Shown piece after piece: positions 3,392 to 13,324 of a stretch of DNA of 24,099 nt. Under the pieces are notes generated by a model that was given only the letters and a program-made list of their open reading frames with translations, made no database searches and was not told the origin of the DNA. Position 1 is the first letter of the stretch. The number at the start of each line of letters is the position of its first letter. The DNA comes from a virus: positions 1 to 24,099 of the IMG/VR virus record IMGVR_UViG_3300020433_000048; one strand, 5' to 3'. The position numbers and the translations under genes are program-made.

Positions 3392-5731
3392 TTAACAGAA
3401 AAAATAAGTGGATTCTATAACCGTTTCTGGTTGTAAGTCGCCAATGATAGGCGGTTCTGTCTCTGCCCCAACATAAAGGGCAAAGGTCTTGAGGTAATCA
3501 TGCTCTGCAAAGAGGTGCATGTATGTTTCCCTTATTATAGCACTAAGTTTACCCATATCGCAACATCTGCTTAACACACTGTCATGAATTAGTGCAATCG
3601 GTTCATCAAAACTCCGAAGCGCAAGGTGTAAGAGAGATGCGTCCAAACTATGGATAAGGTTAGGTGCAGTAGCAGCCTTGTGCCTATTGATGTCGACCTC
3701 CTTCCCGTCTTCTACTGCGACGGATAAGTCACAACGACCTAATAGTTGTAGTTGTATACGTTCTACTTTCTTTTTAAAGTACCGCTGTCTAACTACGAAA
3801 CCAGAAGGGGTCGTCCATTCTATAAAATTTTCGCCACGTTTTATGGCTTGTCCTACCTCAGTCTCAATCCATCTCATAACTGACATTGGCCCGGGCACTA
3901 CTGCCTGCATAGCCGAACGAACTGATGAAACGATCTGAGTTAGGTCATCTTTATCTACATCTATACCCTTCTCTTTAAGTGCATCTTTGATGTATGATCT
4001 ATTAGAGTAAGCCTTTGCATTGTATGGAATAGTCATAACAGTACGCTTGACGCACTTTCTATCCCAGACATCTCTGTACTTCTCTGGTATATATGGGCTT
4101 GCAACCTCTGCAACGACAGCATAAGCATCTTGTGGCTTAGGTGACGGTACAACATTGACAAGCTGTGCTGTGGATTTATCACGTGCAAGACCTGCTAGTA
4201 TCTGTAAACCAGAACAGGTAGCATCGGTAGCCACAGGTAACGAGGTGGTGTTACGTTCCTTGAGAATTACACATTGATGGAACTCTTCGCACGCTGCTAA
4301 GAATAACCACGGCTCGTCTGCTGCTTCCCAATCGCCAAGATTAGCAATAGGGTCAAGTGAGACACGTGAGATTAGTGACCAATTCTCATGAGTCCAATCT
4401 AGTCTCTCTTGCATTGTAGCTTTATCTAATCCGTAAGTTGTAGCTACTTGGAAAGCGAGCCAGTCCTCACAGTTCTCGGTCAGAACGGCAGCATCAGCAA
4501 ACTGTAATAAAGATTTACCAAAGTCTGTATCCTGTGGTGTGAGAAATGCCGGTATTGGATAGGCTCGTCCCCTGTAATCAAACGACCACGGAATGTAAAA
4601 CTCTCTGTCTTTGAAGCGTGCGACAGCCTCCATAGTCATTCTTGTGCGGCAGCTTCTCTTGAACTCCGCCGCTCTCTTATTCATTACTTCCGCCGCTGCT
4701 CTACGGTAATGCTTCCGTGACTCTTTATTAGTCTCAATGTCAGCAGGCTTTGGAGGTAAATCATAATGTACGATAGGTAGGAATTTACCAACACTTACAC
4801 CTCTCTCTTGTAACAGCTCCGCAGTACGGACGATAAAGGGATTTAACCTATATTTAACTTGCTGTATTTTGTTCAGAAAAGCGAGTGGGATTTCCCCCTG
4901 TATAAGGGCGTGATCGCCTCTTCTGACAAGCTCATGGCCGTGCATGACCTCATTCAGTATATACCCACCTGCTTCGGTGTTTGTCCAGTCTCTGGGTGGT
5001 ATAAGCATAGGCCACGCTAATGGTGAAAATAATTCAGCATTTGCCATCACCTCGTCCTTGATGTCCATAAACTCTGCGGTTGGTACAATATATACTGTAG
5101 TCTTACGACCTGTGCGTATACGTTGCTTATAAAACCAACCACTTGACTCCATAATACAATCAAGTAGCCAACCACCAAGCTTGGTACGTATAGATGTACC
5201 CCAAGCATGCCATGGTTTCACATTATATCTGTTCATTAGCGTCCTAATTACTACGAGTTTCTGATGTGTACCACAAGCCTTGTGCCAGTAGTTATCTTTG
5301 AGTGTCTTAAGCAATGCAGGTGCATGGTATTCGTAGTGTCTCATCTGGCACTCATCCTCGACTGCTTTGCCGATGGCACTACATATATTTGTAGCGGTAT
5401 TACACTTATCCTTGTAACCAAATACGTTATCGAATGTAATCTTACACGCAATGGCTGCGGCGGCTAGTGTTTCTATTGTAGATAAGTATTCATGTATGTC
5501 CTTGAAGGCAGCACCATACTTACCTTGATGTATCTTTGTATTAGTATCCTCAATACGTTTAACTACATGTGGCAGTAACGTATCTATACTACTGATACCG
5601 TATACACTTGCTGACGAATAGTTCTGTTGTTCTAACTTATACGTCTGGTCACGTAATCGTTTCAGTCCCTGTGCTATCTGGGTTCTCTCCAGTTGCATCT
5701 GTTCTTCTATTATATCTGTCTGCAAGTTCAT
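3392..5731 (-). CDS. DNA-directed RNA polymerase, single-subunit T7 type
   Basis: A 779-residue polymerase (T7: 883) that would transcribe the phage middle and late genes. The catalytic residues are present: D503 in ATDATCSGLQ (T7 D537), K562 and Y570 in VKRTVMTIPYNAK (T7 K631, Y639), and D717 in IALIHDS (T7 D812). WSFDYRGRAYP matches T7 NMDWRGRVY. The C-terminus, VIESTYFFC, parallels the T7 FAFA foot. By alignment the promoter-specificity loop reads R658, Q660, D668, S670 where T7 has R746, N748, R756, Q758, so its promoter should differ from that of T7. T7 G640 is replaced by N571. The start at 5731 overlaps the previous gene by 83 bases; M12 at 5698 is an alternative start. A candidate cognate promoter lies inside this gene at 4895-4919. 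Confidence 0.97.
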   Translation of the reverse strand: MNLQTDIIEEQMQLERTQIAQGLKRLRDQTYKLEQQNYSSASVYGISSIDTLLPHVVKRIEDTNTKIHQGKYGAAFKDIHEYLSTIETLAAAAIACKITFDNVFGYKDKCNTATNICSAIGKAVEDECQMRHYEYHAPALLKTLKDNYWHKACGTHQKLVVIRTLMNRYNVKPWHAWGTSIRTKLGGWLLDCIMESSGWFYKQRIRTGRKTTVYIVPTAEFMDIKDEVMANAELFSPLAWPMLIPPRDWTNTEAGGYILNEVMHGHELVRRGDHALIQGEIPLAFLNKIQQVKYRLNPFIVRTAELLQERGVSVGKFLPIVHYDLPPKPADIETNKESRKHYRRAAAEVMNKRAAEFKRSCRTRMTMEAVARFKDREFYIPWSFDYRGRAYPIPAFLTPQDTDFGKSLLQFADAAVLTENCEDWLAFQVATTYGLDKATMQERLDWTHENWSLISRVSLDPIANLGDWEAADEPWLFLAACEEFHQCVILKERNTTSLPVATDATCSGLQILAGLARDKSTAQLVNVVPSPKPQDAYAVVAEVASPYIPEKYRDVWDRKCVKRTVMTIPYNAKAYSNRSYIKDALKEKGIDVDKDDLTQIVSSVRSAMQAVVPGPMSVMRWIETEVGQAIKRGENFIEWTTPSGFVVRQRYFKKKVERIQLQLLGRCDLSVAVEDGKEVDINRHKAATAPNLIHSLDASLLHLALRSFDEPIALIHDSVLSRCCDMGKLSAIIRETYMHLFAEHDYLKTFALYVGAETEPPIIGDLQPETVIESTYFFC
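4895..4919 (-). promoter_or_regulatory. Candidate phage-RNA-polymerase promoter, copy A (inside RNA polymerase gene)
   Basis: On the minus strand this reads AGGCGATCACGCC followed by CTTATACAGGGG, and it is identical at 23 of 25 bases to 11566-11590 just after the large terminase. A match of that length between two unrelated sites is very unlikely by chance. It ends in a G run like T7 promoters (TATAGGG), which is where initiation would occur. From here transcription would cover the end of the polymerase gene and then the replication genes, matching class II of T7. The function is inferred; the duplication is seen directly. Confidence 0.5.
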
Positions 5732-8401: not shown

Positions 8402-8625
8402 TAGTCGTCCTCCTCGTCGTATTCTTCTCGTCCGTCTGCTATCTCTAAGCAGAAGTATTCTAGCAGTTGTCTAACTGTGTAATCAGGATACTCTAGCATA
8501 TCTTCCATGAAACTAGCGAATGATCGCCTAGTGCCGTCGACCATGTAGTAGTACTCCTGTATGTAGTCGGACTGCCATTTGAGTTGTTCTGGCGTTTGTG
8601 TTGGTGTCGGTAGTGATTGTGACAT
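8401..8625 (-). CDS. 74-aa acidic early protein, unknown function
   Basis: Starts MSQSLPTPTQTPEQLKWQSD and ends in the strongly acidic DGREEYDEEDD. Mostly helical by residue pattern, no membrane segment. Both ends are coupled by TAATG overlaps (8625 and 8401). A small acidic protein could act as a DNA mimic or inhibitor, but that is speculation. Confidence 0.75.
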   Translation of the reverse strand: MSQSLPTPTQTPEQLKWQSDYIQEYYYMVDGTRRSFASFMEDMLEYPDYTVRQLLEYFCLEIADGREEYDEEDD

Positions 8626-8804
8626 TACATCATCTCCCCGAAAACTAAAAATGGCTTGGCGTTATTGTTGTGCATCTCCCTCTTTTTAATGGCTTGATAT
8701 GTTGGATAAGGGCAATCTGTCCATGTGTCATGGCTAATCATCCAATCGTACGCCAATAGGTATGGTATCATGTCCTTGTCGTCTATGTATGTGTTAAATC
8801 CCAT
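8625..8804 (-). CDS. 59-aa early protein, unknown function
   Basis: Starts MGFNTYIDDKDMIPYLLAYD and ends AKPFLVFGEMM. The stop overlaps the next ATG as TAATG at 8625. The first 11 bases overlap the upstream gene. The residue mix, rich in aromatic residues, suggests a compact globular protein. No family is recognised. Coupling at the 3' end and exact fit between its neighbours support it as a real gene. Confidence 0.75.
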   Translation of the reverse strand: MGFNTYIDDKDMIPYLLAYDWMISHDTWTDCPYPTYQAIKKREMHNNNAKPFLVFGEMM

Positions 8805-10010: not shown

Positions 10011-10328
10011 TTACTCAAAAGTTATCTTGTCTCCGTATGGTGTGTAAACTGTGACCTTAGTCGTGTACTCACCTAGTTCAGCATTGAGTAGTGCTGTAGC
10101 GATAGTCTGTTCGTTGGTCATTGATAGTACTGACTGATCGAGTACGTCCGTAAACTCTGCACGTGTCAGATGTAATGCGACCTCATTCTGTGTCTTGTCT
10201 GTCTCTGACTCTGTGTATGTTAAGTCACAGGCGTCCAACAGCTCCTCGCAGTCGCAGTCTATCTCTATGTAGAAGTCATAAGTACCCTGCGTCCTTGACC
10301 ACTCTCGCTTTTCGTCCTTGTATGGCAT
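10011..10328 (-). CDS. 105-aa acidic early protein, unknown function
   Basis: A strongly acidic soluble protein (MPYKDEKREWSRTQGTYDFY; EIDCDCEELLDACDLTYTES). Alternating hydrophobic residues suggest several beta strands, with two helices in the middle. Three cysteines lie close together (C30, C32, C39 approx). No family is recognised. The ATG follows GAGGACGCAATT, a clear ribosome site, and a promoter lies about 55 bases upstream, so it is the first gene of its unit. Acidic early proteins of T7-like phages can mimic DNA (Ocr), but no sequence similarity to Ocr is visible. Confidence 0.78.
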   Translation of the reverse strand: MPYKDEKREWSRTQGTYDFYIEIDCDCEELLDACDLTYTESETDKTQNEVALHLTRAEFTDVLDQSVLSMTNEQTIATALLNAELGEYTTKVTVYTPYGDKITFE

Positions 10329-10380
10329 AATTGCGTCCTCGTGTAATGATTGTGATGGTAAATAAAAATCTGTCTCTATA

Positions 10381-10394
10381 CCTCTATTATAGCA
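10381..10394 (-). promoter_or_regulatory. Early promoter, extended -10 (TGCTATAAT)
   Basis: The minus strand reads ATGCTATAATAGAGG here, with TATAAT at 10391-10386. No good -35 is seen at 16-18 bases, so it would depend on the extended -10. The segment 10373-10395 is identical at 22 of 23 bases to 10926-10948, meaning the promoter core has been duplicated. It serves the 105-aa gene. Confidence 0.6.
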
Positions 10395-10424
10395 TCTTAT
10401 CGTGAGACTAACTTGATATGTGTG

Positions 10425-10515
10425 GAATCTCTGATAAGAATAATAAGTATAATGAGTCGCATGAGACTGATTGTGATAATGAGTGTGAGTCTCAAACTGG
10501 ACTCAAACTAGACTC
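10425..10515 (-). repeat. GANTC-rich short-repeat block 1
   Basis: A non-coding 91-bp stretch containing five GANTC sites (10425, 10454, 10487, 10500, 10511). On the minus strand two tandem 11-mers, GAGTCTAGTTT and GAGTCCAGTTT, are followed by GAGACTCACAC. It holds one copy of the 9-bp palindrome TGAGTCTCA (10486-10494). It lies between the 65-aa gene stop and the next promoter, filling most of the 10329-10513 gene-free interval. Confidence 0.7.
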
Positions 10516-10711
10516 ACATCACTTTCTTATGTGTCTTAAATGTATTATTGTTACGCTTTATAAACTTTGGTGTGCGTTTATAATTAATTGTAGATGGTAA
10601 CACAGTATATGTCACTTCTTTACAATTCTCTTGTAAGTGCGTAATCGAATCATGTAACTGTTTGTAATATTCTGTTGAATGTTTATAAAACTTAAAGCGT
10701 TGATGATTCAT
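10514..10711 (-). CDS. 65-aa basic early protein, unknown function
   Basis: A basic 65-residue protein starting MNHQRFKFYKHSTEYYKQLH with a lysine/asparagine-rich C-terminus (FIKRNNNTFKTHKKVM). No family is recognised; the charge suggests nucleic-acid binding. The ATG overlaps the upstream stop as TAATG at 10711, so it is the second gene of the first early unit. Confidence 0.7.
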   Translation of the reverse strand: MNHQRFKFYKHSTEYYKQLHDSITHLQENCKEVTYTVLPSTINYKRTPKFIKRNNNTFKTHKKVM

Positions 10712-10905
10712 TAGGCAAACACCATAGTCGCTTTAGTCACAGGTTGAGACACTACTGTAATACCTAGAGTCTTAAGTGACGCAATGTCTTTCTCATTGAT
10801 AGTCTTTTTACCTGTTAAGGATTGTAAAGCTTGTGCTTGTACTGAATCTGTAACATAGTGTAATGTTTTGCCGAAGGCTGTCTTAGGTTGTGTCTTGATG
10901 GTCAT
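10711..10905 (-). CDS. 64-aa first early protein, unknown function
   Basis: Starts MTIKTQPKTAFGKTLHYVTD and ends TKATMVFA. No family is recognised. It has an AAGGAG ribosome site 9 bases before the ATG and a good promoter (10939-10968) about 34 bases upstream, making it the first gene expressed when the presumed left end enters the cell. First early genes of T7-like phages commonly counter host defence or take over host functions; that role is inference from position only. Confidence 0.75.
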   Translation of the reverse strand: MTIKTQPKTAFGKTLHYVTDSVQAQALQSLTGKKTINEKDIASLKTLGITVVSQPVTKATMVFA

Positions 10906-10938
10906 GTTTTGGAATCTCCTTTATCTCTCTATGCCTCT

Positions 10939-10968
10939 ATTATAGCATTATTATTCTGAGATTGTCAT
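10939..10968 (-). promoter_or_regulatory. Main early promoter (sigma70-like, extended -10)
   Basis: The minus strand carries ATGACA (10968-10963), an 18-base spacer and TGC-TATAAT (TATAAT at 10944-10939). ATGACA matches the TTGACA consensus at 5 of 6 bases and the -10 is perfect. Its position fits the T7 early promoters A1-A3. The downstream leader carries AAGGAG before the ATG at 10905. Confidence 0.7.
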
Positions 10969-10998
10969 GAGATTTTATCAGTCCCACACATCTAATTT

Positions 10999-11226
10999 GA
11001 GTCGCACATGATTGTGAGTCTCAGTCTAATACTGATTGAGACTGGACTAAGACTGAGATGCCAACAGATCGTGACACATTGTAACAGTCTCAGATTGCGT
11101 CCATGTTGCGTATGAGTGTGATCGGCGTACCGCACTTGACGAGTCTTACCATGAGTCTACCCTAGACTGCGTCCTAGTTTCGCTGAGACTCACTGGACTC
11201 GTCGGACTCGCTGAGACTCATGATTC
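10999..11226 (-). repeat. GANTC-rich short-repeat block 2
   Basis: A non-coding stretch of 228 bp with nine GANTC sites (10999, 11016, 11141, 11153, 11187, 11196, 11205, 11215, 11222). It includes a perfect 12-bp direct repeat CGCTGAGACTCA (11181-11192 and 11209-11220), two GGACTCG words 9 bases apart (11195, 11204), and three copies of the 9-bp palindrome TGAG(A/T)CTCA (11015, 11184, 11212). It resembles in placement the short repeats near the T7 terminal repeat, but the sequence word is different. Confidence 0.75.
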
Positions 11227-11228
11227 CT

Positions 11229-11237
11229 ATTATAACA
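11229..11237 (-). promoter_or_regulatory. Possible upstream early promoter (extended -10)
   Basis: The minus strand reads TGTTATAAT here, an extended -10 word. No -35 is visible at normal spacing. It would transcribe through repeat block 2 into the first early gene. Supported mainly by being the fourth TGnTATAAT word in the early control regions. Confidence 0.4.
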
Positions 11238-11298
11238 GGGACGGCAATGGGGGAAATGCGACCTACCTCCGTCGTATATATGACCAGACAAAATTATG

Positions 11299-11454
11299 TC
11301 ATTTTTTACGGAATAGGGATTCTAGGTATTGTTTTTTGAGCTGTAATCGCTGTTCTTGAAGACTTAACAGAGGCCACTTGTTAATCTTAAGTGCTATCTT
11401 TGTTTTTCTCCATCTATTCAGTAATATACGCTCTATAGCTGCGAATATTCTCAT
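11299..11454 (-). CDS. Possible 51-aa basic protein in the genome-end junction
   Basis: An ATG at 11454 opens a 51-residue frame (MRIFAAIERILLNRWRKTKI; end QYLESLFRKK). It is very basic and could form an amphipathic helix. No ribosome site precedes it, and an in-frame stop lies 11 codons upstream, so no longer version exists. The start is otherwise isolated, unlike the coupled genes elsewhere. It may be chance; if real it would be the last gene before, or the first after, the genome end. Confidence 0.3.
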   Translation of the reverse strand: MRIFAAIERILLNRWRKTKIALKINKWPLLSLQEQRLQLKKQYLESLFRKK

Positions 11455-11517
11455 GTTTTGGAGTTTGTGTAAGTGTATTAAGAGTTATCCACTCATAGGA
11501 TAACCGGTGTTATGATA

Positions 11518-11539
11518 GGAGGAGATGTTAGTCTCCTCC
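11518..11539 (-). terminator. Hairpin after large terminase (possible terminator)
   Basis: GGAGGAGA (11518-11525) and TCTCCTCC (11532-11539) form a perfect 8-bp stem with a 6-base loop. It lies 52 bases after the terminase stop, where the late transcript should end. No U run follows on the minus strand (TATCAT), so classic intrinsic termination is unproven. It could instead stop the phage polymerase or mark RNA processing. Confidence 0.45.
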
Positions 11540-11565
11540 ATAGGGGTCGAGTCCACCCTTCTCTT

Positions 11566-11590
11566 CCCCTGTATAAGTGCGTGATCGACT
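11566..11590 (-). promoter_or_regulatory. Candidate phage-RNA-polymerase promoter, copy B (phiOR-like position)
   Basis: The minus strand reads AGTCGATCACGCA then CTTATACAGGGG, 23/25 identical to 4895-4919. It starts directly after the large terminase stop codon, so it is not constrained by coding. T7 carries its phiOR promoter between gene 19 and the right end, the equivalent place. It is followed by GAAGAGAAGGG, a purine-rich start like that of T7 transcripts. Function inferred. Confidence 0.55.
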
Positions 11591-13324
11591 TTACCTCCAA
11601 TTAGGTAGCTCATTGCCTGTTTCACGCCCACGAGCCTCCTGACGCTGTTCTAGAGACATCCCCATAACTAGGTGATTAGCACTGCTTTTGGGGTTGTCTA
11701 AGAAATCTTCAAGTATACTCGCAAACTCGAGCTGTTTTCTTCTTTTTATCTCTTCCTGAGCACTTATATGTAGGGCATCTGTAAAATACTTTACGCCTTG
11801 TGCTAGACAATCGAGTCTATCGTCATGTTTGACTGCACCTTTCTGCCTACACATACGACTCATTTGGTAAAATAGCATATAGAGGAGCCGCTCTTCAGGC
11901 GGACTGTCTTGGTTCGACCTATAGTCCCAGTCGATAACGCCACGATCAACGATAAGGCGATGCTGATTGAGCACAGGTTCAAGAGCGTCAATAATCCTAT
12001 CCTCTTTCCTAACATTTGCTCGTACCTCTTCAATATGTATGTTTTGTTTTGTCTGAATAAGATGTTTTTTAAATAATTCACTGACTATACCGTCTCCAAA
12101 GTTTGTTTCGATAACAAGCGACGTAACACCGAACTTTTTACATCCTCTAAGGATGTCGAGCAAGGTATTATCACTATACCCGTCTCTGTACGCTCGCACT
12201 TCATGCAAATAGATGAGTCCGTTTTTCTGGGATAAATAACAAGCCGCTGTTTCGTCTGTACCCCTTCCGGATGGGTCCACGCTACAAATGGTTTCGTTAT
12301 ATTCACTCCAATCTCCTTGCATTTGCATAGGTGTATAGAAATAGTCCCCCGGTAATCCAACTGTTGGTGCATCTTTGATGACATTGTTGGGGTCTGAGCA
12401 CCATACGATGTTCTGGGGTGCAGTAGTAGGATTAACGCTAGTAACGATAAGATCAGCCATCTTAAGTGGGAATTTTTCGGCATCTGATAAGCTTGTGTCG
12501 AGTTGAAATTGCAACATGTAGTTGCTACGACCCATAGAAGCTTCTCGTTCTATCAAATCGTCATTTGTAAATCTGCTATCTGTAGGAGCCCATTCTTCTG
12601 CTCCATTATCTATATCTTCTTGTAAATCAGGTGCTAAAAGTCCTTCGTATTGGGTAATACTTTTACCTCTTGGGTATCTTGCCGGCCAAACCAAGGGACG
12701 ATACGAACGCTCTGCCAACTTACGATAAATAGTAAAAGTAGTCTGAGGAGTCCCGAGATACATAATACGGCTATCGCTTTTCGGGGTAAGGATACTTTCC
12801 GCTTCTGTACAAAGTTGTAAAAGTTTTTCACGCATAAGCTCCGTCATACTGTTGCCCGGAACCTCTACGTCGTCTAAAATCATGAGATCGGCTCGGCTTC
12901 CTGTGAGCTGCCCAGTGATTCCTACCGATTTTACGCTTGGTGCTTGGTGTGGTGAGCAGTTTACGTCGAAACTGATGCGACTCCAACGAGAATCGTCCGA
13001 TTTCGGTCTTAGAAAGTTTAGCCATGGTGTCTCAATGATAAGTTTTTGTAAGAAGATCGACATGTTATCCGCTCTCTCCTTAGAAGCGGAGATAATCATT
13101 ATTTTCCGTTCCGGGTCATTAAAGAGTGTCCATAACACAAAAGCACCAGTAATCCAAGATTTACCAACACCTCGAAAGGCTTGAATCTGGAGTCTCTTGG
13201 GTCCGTTTTGTAAGTAGTCTGCGATTGCATATTGGGCTCTGGTTGGTGAAGGTAGATCAAGCTCTCCCCACAATGCCTGTAGAAAAAGCTTGAAATCCTG
13301 TTGTAATAATTGTAAAGAATCCAT
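11591..13324 (-). CDS. Terminase large subunit (T7 gp19-like)
   Basis: A 577-residue packaging motor (T7 gp19: 586) that cuts concatemeric DNA and pumps it into the prohead with ATP. ATPase half: Walker A in AFRGVGKSWITG (K55, S56) and Walker B in DLMILDDVEVPG (D151, D152). Nuclease half: RNase-H-like fold with D350 in CSVDPSGRGTDETAACYL, and a later acidic pair in KHDDRLDCLAQGVKYF. A run resembling T7 IIDALEPVLNQHRLIV is present. The ATG at 13324 overlaps the preceding stop as TAATG. It is the last gene of the late operon and is followed directly by the genome-end region. Confidence 0.96.
   Translation of the reverse strand: MDSLQLLQQDFKLFLQALWGELDLPSPTRAQYAIADYLQNGPKRLQIQAFRGVGKSWITGAFVLWTLFNDPERKIMIISASKERADNMSIFLQKLIIETPWLNFLRPKSDDSRWSRISFDVNCSPHQAPSVKSVGITGQLTGSRADLMILDDVEVPGNSMTELMREKLLQLCTEAESILTPKSDSRIMYLGTPQTTFTIYRKLAERSYRPLVWPARYPRGKSITQYEGLLAPDLQEDIDNGAEEWAPTDSRFTNDDLIEREASMGRSNYMLQFQLDTSLSDAEKFPLKMADLIVTSVNPTTAPQNIVWCSDPNNVIKDAPTVGLPGDYFYTPMQMQGDWSEYNETICSVDPSGRGTDETAACYLSQKNGLIYLHEVRAYRDGYSDNTLLDILRGCKKFGVTSLVIETNFGDGIVSELFKKHLIQTKQNIHIEEVRANVRKEDRIIDALEPVLNQHRLIVDRGVIDWDYRSNQDSPPEERLLYMLFYQMSRMCRQKGAVKHDDRLDCLAQGVKYFTDALHISAQEEIKRRKQLEFASILEDFLDNPKSSANHLVMGMSLEQRQEARGRETGNELPNWR

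Follow-up and report, generated by a model that had tools for sequence, protein, structure and literature searches.

What is the function of a 25-base sequence that a phage genome carries twice, once inside the gene for its RNA polymerase (RNAP) and once directly past its terminase gene? In the window, by which we mean the whole viral stretch of 24,099 nucleotides analysed here, both copies lie on the minus strand, at 4895-4919 and 11566-11590; a repeat search reproduced their agreement at 23 of 25 bases (92%), a similarity far over the chance level, and a reading of the sequence bore out that each runs through ACAGGGG into purines. The original prediction took the pair for the cognate promoter of a T7-type polymerase with a divergent specificity loop, and our comparisons lead to the same answer: with a probability of roughly 0.96, the element is the promoter of the phage's own single-subunit RNAP, present in two copies. 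The features concerned are the following.

Positions 3392-5731, minus strand: gene for a T7-type single-subunit RNA polymerase of 779 amino acids, assigned by homology.
Positions 3691-3781, minus strand: codons of the RNAP specificity loop (approximate), from alignment with T7 RNAP; residue 668 (D) corresponds to T7 R756.
Positions 4901-4916, minus strand: predicted RNAP-internal promoter copy, -16 to -1 in T7 numbering, CGATCACGCCCTTATA, from the pattern and relatives, with the register taken from RNAP coevolution.
Positions 11572-11587, minus strand: predicted post-terminase promoter copy, -16 to -1, CGATCACGCACTTATA, at a phiOR-like place, from the pattern and relatives.
Positions 11591-13324, minus strand: gene for the terminase large subunit, 577 amino acids, from its open reading frame and homology, immediately upstream of the second copy.

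Judged by its genes, the window phage is a T7-like cyanopodovirus, that is, an ocean cyanophage. Its RNAP shares 50-70% identity with the best-matching named cyanophage enzymes (NATL1A-7, 69.6%; S-RIP1, 68.5%; P-SSP7, 58.4%) and retains the catalytic residues D537, K631, Y639, H811 and D812 (T7 numbers), which places it among the T7-type (Autographiviridae) polymerases; at the DNA level, the terminase region finds its matches in Prochlorococcus phages. Along the minus strand run tail genes, terminase, a noncoding gap, small early open reading frames, RNAP, SSB, endonuclease, primase/helicase and the start of DNA polymerase. Because these genes flank the genome-end region, the record would be part of an assembly that was circularised or concatemeric; in another IMG/VR contig, 3300006305_000004 (49,952 bases), the RNAP gene is present twice, perhaps through assembly-end overlap. 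Since this phage is represented by the 24,099-base window, which may not be its complete genome, the whole-genome search for copies was made in relatives instead.

Within the window the pattern GATCACGC-n-CTTATACAGGGG has exactly two sites at up to three mismatches, with no extra copy at that threshold anywhere in the 24,099 bases and none in 100 dinucleotide shuffles, while a shorter pattern gave weak additional matches only (5 versus 1.9 expected). One copy falls within the RNAP reading frame and the other starts at the base directly past the terminase stop; the repeat thus occupies more than one genome place and is oriented like the genes, as a cognate T7-type promoter should be. The top 22-mer common to the RNAP gene and the 260 nt past the terminase scores 21, against a mean of 15.9 and a maximum of 17 when those 260 nt are shuffled (100 shuffles). 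IMG/VR records contain 64 exact copies of the window element, spread over 61 stretches: 50 lie after the terminase, 14 in RNAP and none elsewhere.

The same pair recurs in every named relative compared. We compared the post-terminase stretch with the RNAP gene in 24 cyanopodoviruses (20 named genomes plus four more of the Syn5 clade, with S-CBP42 as a 12-kb piece) and found the pair in 24 of 24, clear by inspection in 23 and weak in NATL1A-7, whose post-terminase copy differs from its internal copy at 4 of 16 bases; the 7B11-B pair was missed by the best-22-mer search and recovered by an anchored search (14/19). In every clear case the internal copy stands about 1513-1533 nt ahead of the RNAP gene end. 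Across relatives the constant part of the element is TATACAGGG, and the 12 bases preceding it are variable. Only two well-matching sites were found in 20 of 22 whole cyanopodovirus genomes (NATL1A-7 and S-CBP42 left out); S-B28 (~42340) and 7B11-B (~41296) have a third, promoter-like one close to the early genes of the left end, a place reminiscent of T7 phiOL, and P60, S-CBP2, Syn5, S-B28 and 7B11-B each have one additional 3-mismatch match elsewhere, which we read as chance. Further copies had been expected before capsid, tail and replication genes, and this expectation failed: the T7 late layout, with many copies before capsid and tail genes, appears neither in the window nor in the whole relatives. 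Its absence is no valid refutation of the promoter reading, because the verified Syn5 system also has two promoters only (PMC3950665).

As expected of a cognate promoter, the element coevolves with the promoter-contact residues of the RNAP. We aligned the polymerases with T7 RNAP and scored all columns against 12 promoter positions by mutual information in 71 RNAPs less than 92% identical, excluding the columns encoded by the element itself (T7 300-313) and using shuffles that ignore relatedness. The strongest pairs were 240 x -6, 756 x -9, 136 x -5, 233 x -6, 96 x -16, 754 x -10, 206 x -5 and 98 x -13. With residues 93-101 forming the AT-rich element and about 230-245 the intercalating element, this unbiased scan singles out the known T7 promoter-contact elements. 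In T7 itself, R756 contacts -9 and N748 contacts -10/-11 (PMC5937735). Residue 756 and base -9 pair as Q:T, R:C, K:A, D:G, E:G and V:A, the window phage having D and G; at 240 x -6, T goes with C in 50 of 50, and at 206 x -5, R goes with G in 39 of 39.

A tree-aware test, built on a tree with the contact regions masked and approximate in that it uses parsimony and a branch-length null, placed 24 of 26 changes in column 756 on the same branch as a change at -9 (null 7.6 +/- 2.0; 0 of 3000), first among all pairs. The couplings 240 x -6 (10; null 2.4) and 206 x -5 (15; null 5.4) also held, and the well-supported positions were only -9, -6 and -5, with -15 more weakly so. Four pairs, 748 x -11, 758 x -8, 96 x -16 and 98 x -13, did not stand out in this test, so that the AT-rich-loop couplings (96 and 98), strong by mutual information, become unclear once the tree is taken into account. 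When trained on RNAPs less than 75% identical, residue 756 predicts the -9 base in 59 of 64 cases, compared with 16 of 64 for the majority base; the nearest RNAP below 75% identity is right as a predictor in 26 of 71. Across these relatives, then, the identity of one amino acid (T7 756) appears to predict one DNA base (-9). An engineered T7 RNAP with R756E and other changes uses CGG in place of GAC at -11 to -9, and hence G at -9 (PMC6171733), which is what the natural E-to-G rule predicts. No earlier account of a cyanophage promoter code was found in the literature searched, which largely lies outside subscription papers, and the recognition code, as a broad covariation, appears to be new.

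The closest known system is that of Syn5, described by Zhu, Tabor, Richardson and co-workers, whose verified promoter occupies the two sites at which the window carries its element, one within the RNAP gene, about 1.5 kb from that gene's end, and one directly past the terminase. In the original JBC 2013 paper on Syn5, the second promoter is said to lie near the right genome end. The Syn5 promoter is ATTGGGCACCCGTAA; the genome has two only, the RNAP gene containing one of them, and more than 37 kb is served from a single promoter (PMC3950665). Syn5 and the window differ in the recognition half (ATTGGGCACCCG vs CGATCACGCACT), the window has TATA-CAGGGG instead of TAA-GCAAG, and the clades differ, the window RNAP being closest to NATL1A-7 and S-RIP1 at ~70%. 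The claim of a new promoter therefore stands for the sequence variant and falls for the kind, because Syn5 already has this two-site layout. T7 shares with the window phage the enzyme family, the catalytic residues, the register (with -9 read by 756) and promoters placed at gene 1 and close to the right end; it differs in having 17 phage promoters (PMC6171733), in its recognition sequence and in the position of phi1.1A/B, which lie directly past gene 1 and not inside it, whereas the window copy is inside the RNAP gene.

These likenesses suggest a course of transcription. Host RNA polymerase would first read the left-end genes and the RNAP gene; the phage RNAP, like that of Syn5, would next start inside its own gene and proceed through the replication and structural genes. 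With an internal start ~0.8 kb within the RNAP gene, the phage-driven message would exclude full-length RNAP. The second copy would serve as a phiOR-like promoter near the right genome end, a proximity judged from relatives such as P-SSP7, where the right end is known, and its transcript would begin with a stem-loop whose loop is nearly invariant. At each copy, the window RNAP would read positions -16 to -5 with its AT-rich loop, its intercalating hairpin and its specificity loop, the residue at T7 756 (D here) probably reading -9 (G here). Comparison with relatives, Syn5 and the covariation thus favours the original prediction on three counts, namely a cognate T7-type promoter, a polymerase with a divergent specificity loop, and one copy placed like phiOR with the other able to start the replication-gene message.

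Pairing, position, covariation and constraint are all read directly from the sequences, and from them we infer transcription from both copies and its start. In the T7 register TATA would occupy -4 to -1, and the internal-copy start is expected within about 3 bases past 4901. The position of +1 is fixed only to within a few bases, since the RNAP copies read TATA-CA-GGGG, making +1 a C in the T7 register, an uncommon start for polymerases of this class; among the post-terminase copies, some have TATA-GGGG; and the mapped Syn5 start fits the T7 register (R756 with -9 C) only if the recognition part lies one base closer to the start. Aligning Syn5 CACCCGTAA with S-CBP1 CACCCGTAT without gaps points to a common register, but we discarded this likeness as a guide: it sets an A, not a C, opposite the R756 of Syn5, and the C returns to -9 when the register is taken from the mapped Syn5 +1.

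Three other explanations of the repeat deserve consideration. It could be a DNA site for genome-end processing or packaging, such as a terminase recognition site or concatemer junction, given that the copy past the terminase gene is close to the genome end and has an adjoining stem-loop, and that P-SSP7 has 206-bp terminal repeats (PMC3350473; checked on the sequence) with its copy 1358 nt from the right end. We regard this as very unlikely: no genome end forms within the RNAP gene, which holds the second copy, the bases covary with promoter-contact residues of the RNAP, and the homologous Syn5 element is a verified promoter. The stem-loop, present at the terminase copy only, could still have a genome-end role.

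Scarcely credible is a recent duplication or recombination (an att-type site, for instance) with no regulatory role, even if two-copy repeats are frequent by chance and some T7-like cyanophages have an integrase and can integrate (PMC8776855). The repeat holds the same two places in all named genomes while its sequence diverges in concert, which contradicts independent drift of the copies. In the variable 5' half the copies agree at 94% within a genome, and at 42% when different genomes are compared (0 of 20,000 shuffles reach the within-genome value; 34 distinct pairs); since the post-terminase copy had originally been picked as the best match to the internal one, we redid the test with the same best-match search on every genome, and the genome's own copy matched at 11.1 of 12 bases versus 7.7 of 12 for other genomes (37 genomes; 0 of 20,000 shuffles). 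Synonymous constraint and the absence of other copies in the 61 IMG/VR stretches also count against duplication. Among the window phage and close relatives (13 sequences), the nine codons of the internal copy have a synonymous divergence of 0.077 versus 0.316 gene-wide, with 12 of 770 windows along the gene equally low; across all 82 RNAPs, 6 of 685 are equally low and the codons ATA CAG are invariant. In a mixed group of 9 relatives the dip is absent (207 of 769 equally low), so the synonymous evidence rests on the closest group and the all-RNAP comparison.

Just as improbable is that the TATACAGGG part is constrained by the protein sequence alone (x-Ile-Gln-Gly, with ATA CAG GGR in frame and ATA CAG invariant in the 82 RNAPs) and the post-terminase likeness is secondary, for the noncoding copy retains TATA(CA)GGGG, the Ile codon is always ATA, and the variable half, although it changes which residues are encoded, goes on matching the noncoding copy. 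Two further candidates were set aside: no tRNA was found in the window for a tRNA/attachment-site reading, and the post-terminase element was absent from a sigma-70 scan of its region.

The promoter reading carries a comparative rule, by which the cognate promoter is the repeat common to the RNAP gene and the post-terminase stretch. Promoter prediction has been described as the key limit on the use of new single-subunit RNAPs (PMC11475235), and that study predicted AAAATTCTTCAAGTTTACAA for the P-SSP7 RNAP and CACTTCCACTCAACCAACCG for the S-CBP42 RNAP; our rule gives different sequences, CAAACCCCTACGTATACAGGGG and CTGGCCCATGTAAGCAGGG, respectively. If it is right, cognate promoters would become available for more than 100 cyanophage RNAPs at once, and the 756/-9 covariation would offer a testable code of one residue to one base. 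A promoter pair likely exists in another lineage as well: Pelagibacter phage HTVC011P carries a perfect 20-base repeat, CTAAGTGCCACTATTAGATA, past the terminase and just past the RNAP gene (8622-8641 and 190-209 of two sequence pieces). As in the window, one copy follows the terminase and one adjoins the RNAP gene, and the pair is not annotated; the differences are the sequence itself and the RNAP-side copy, which lies between the RNAP and SSB genes.

Beyond the post-terminase copy lie two structures.

Positions 11542-11570, minus strand: stem-loop with which the post-terminase transcript is expected to begin, with arms AGGGG-aa-GAG and CTC-ga-CCCCT around the loop AAGGGTGGA, from relatives and covariation.
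Positions 11518-11539, minus strand: second hairpin, GGAGGAGA/TCTCCTCC, here without a T run and terminator-like in many relatives, from sequence and relatives.

Of 107 loci, 92 have AAGGGTGGA as the 9-nt loop and 10 have GAGGGTGGA; AAGTGGTGC occurs in two of the other loci, and the Syn5 clade has AGTGGTGC. In 65 distinct sequences the two arms pair at 0.755 of positions; reassigning arms at random between genomes lowered this to 0.608 and never reached the true value (0 of 2000), and exchanges of G-C, A-T, C-G and T-A are all seen. A terminator-like hairpin follows within 110 nt in 34 of 94 distinct sequences versus 1 of 94 shuffled. Rfam holds no family near the stem-loop (the top match, at E 2.7, is chance), and the structure appears to be new, being undescribed in the literature searched, which largely excludes subscription papers. 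It could stabilise the RNA 5' end, form part of a short RNA or act as a DNA site for end processing. Tentatively, and at clearly less than even odds, the post-terminase promoter may make a short structured RNA, with the AAGGGUGGA loop and often then a terminator; such an RNA would work at the genome end, in the priming of replication or in packaging, and would be an undescribed noncoding RNA found throughout the cyanopodoviruses, beside a promoter family supplying dozens of natural polymerase/promoter pairs under a readable residue-to-base code. The nearly unvarying stem-loop next to the promoter of the right end is a family-wide trait of abundant marine phages.

The noncoding gap past the terminase (window 10906-11590) is likely the genome-end region and has features of its own. 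GANTC, mostly as GAGTC or GACTC, is dense at 10200-11400, the stretch 11100-11400 holding 8 occurrences where the mean per 300 bp is 1.05. A single ATCTGTT, the T7 pause-type heptamer, lies in the gap at 11069 on the minus strand. Finally, GCTATAATAGAGG occurs twice on the minus strand, at 10946 and 10393, upstream of small open reading frames, and these sites are likely early promoters for the host RNA polymerase.
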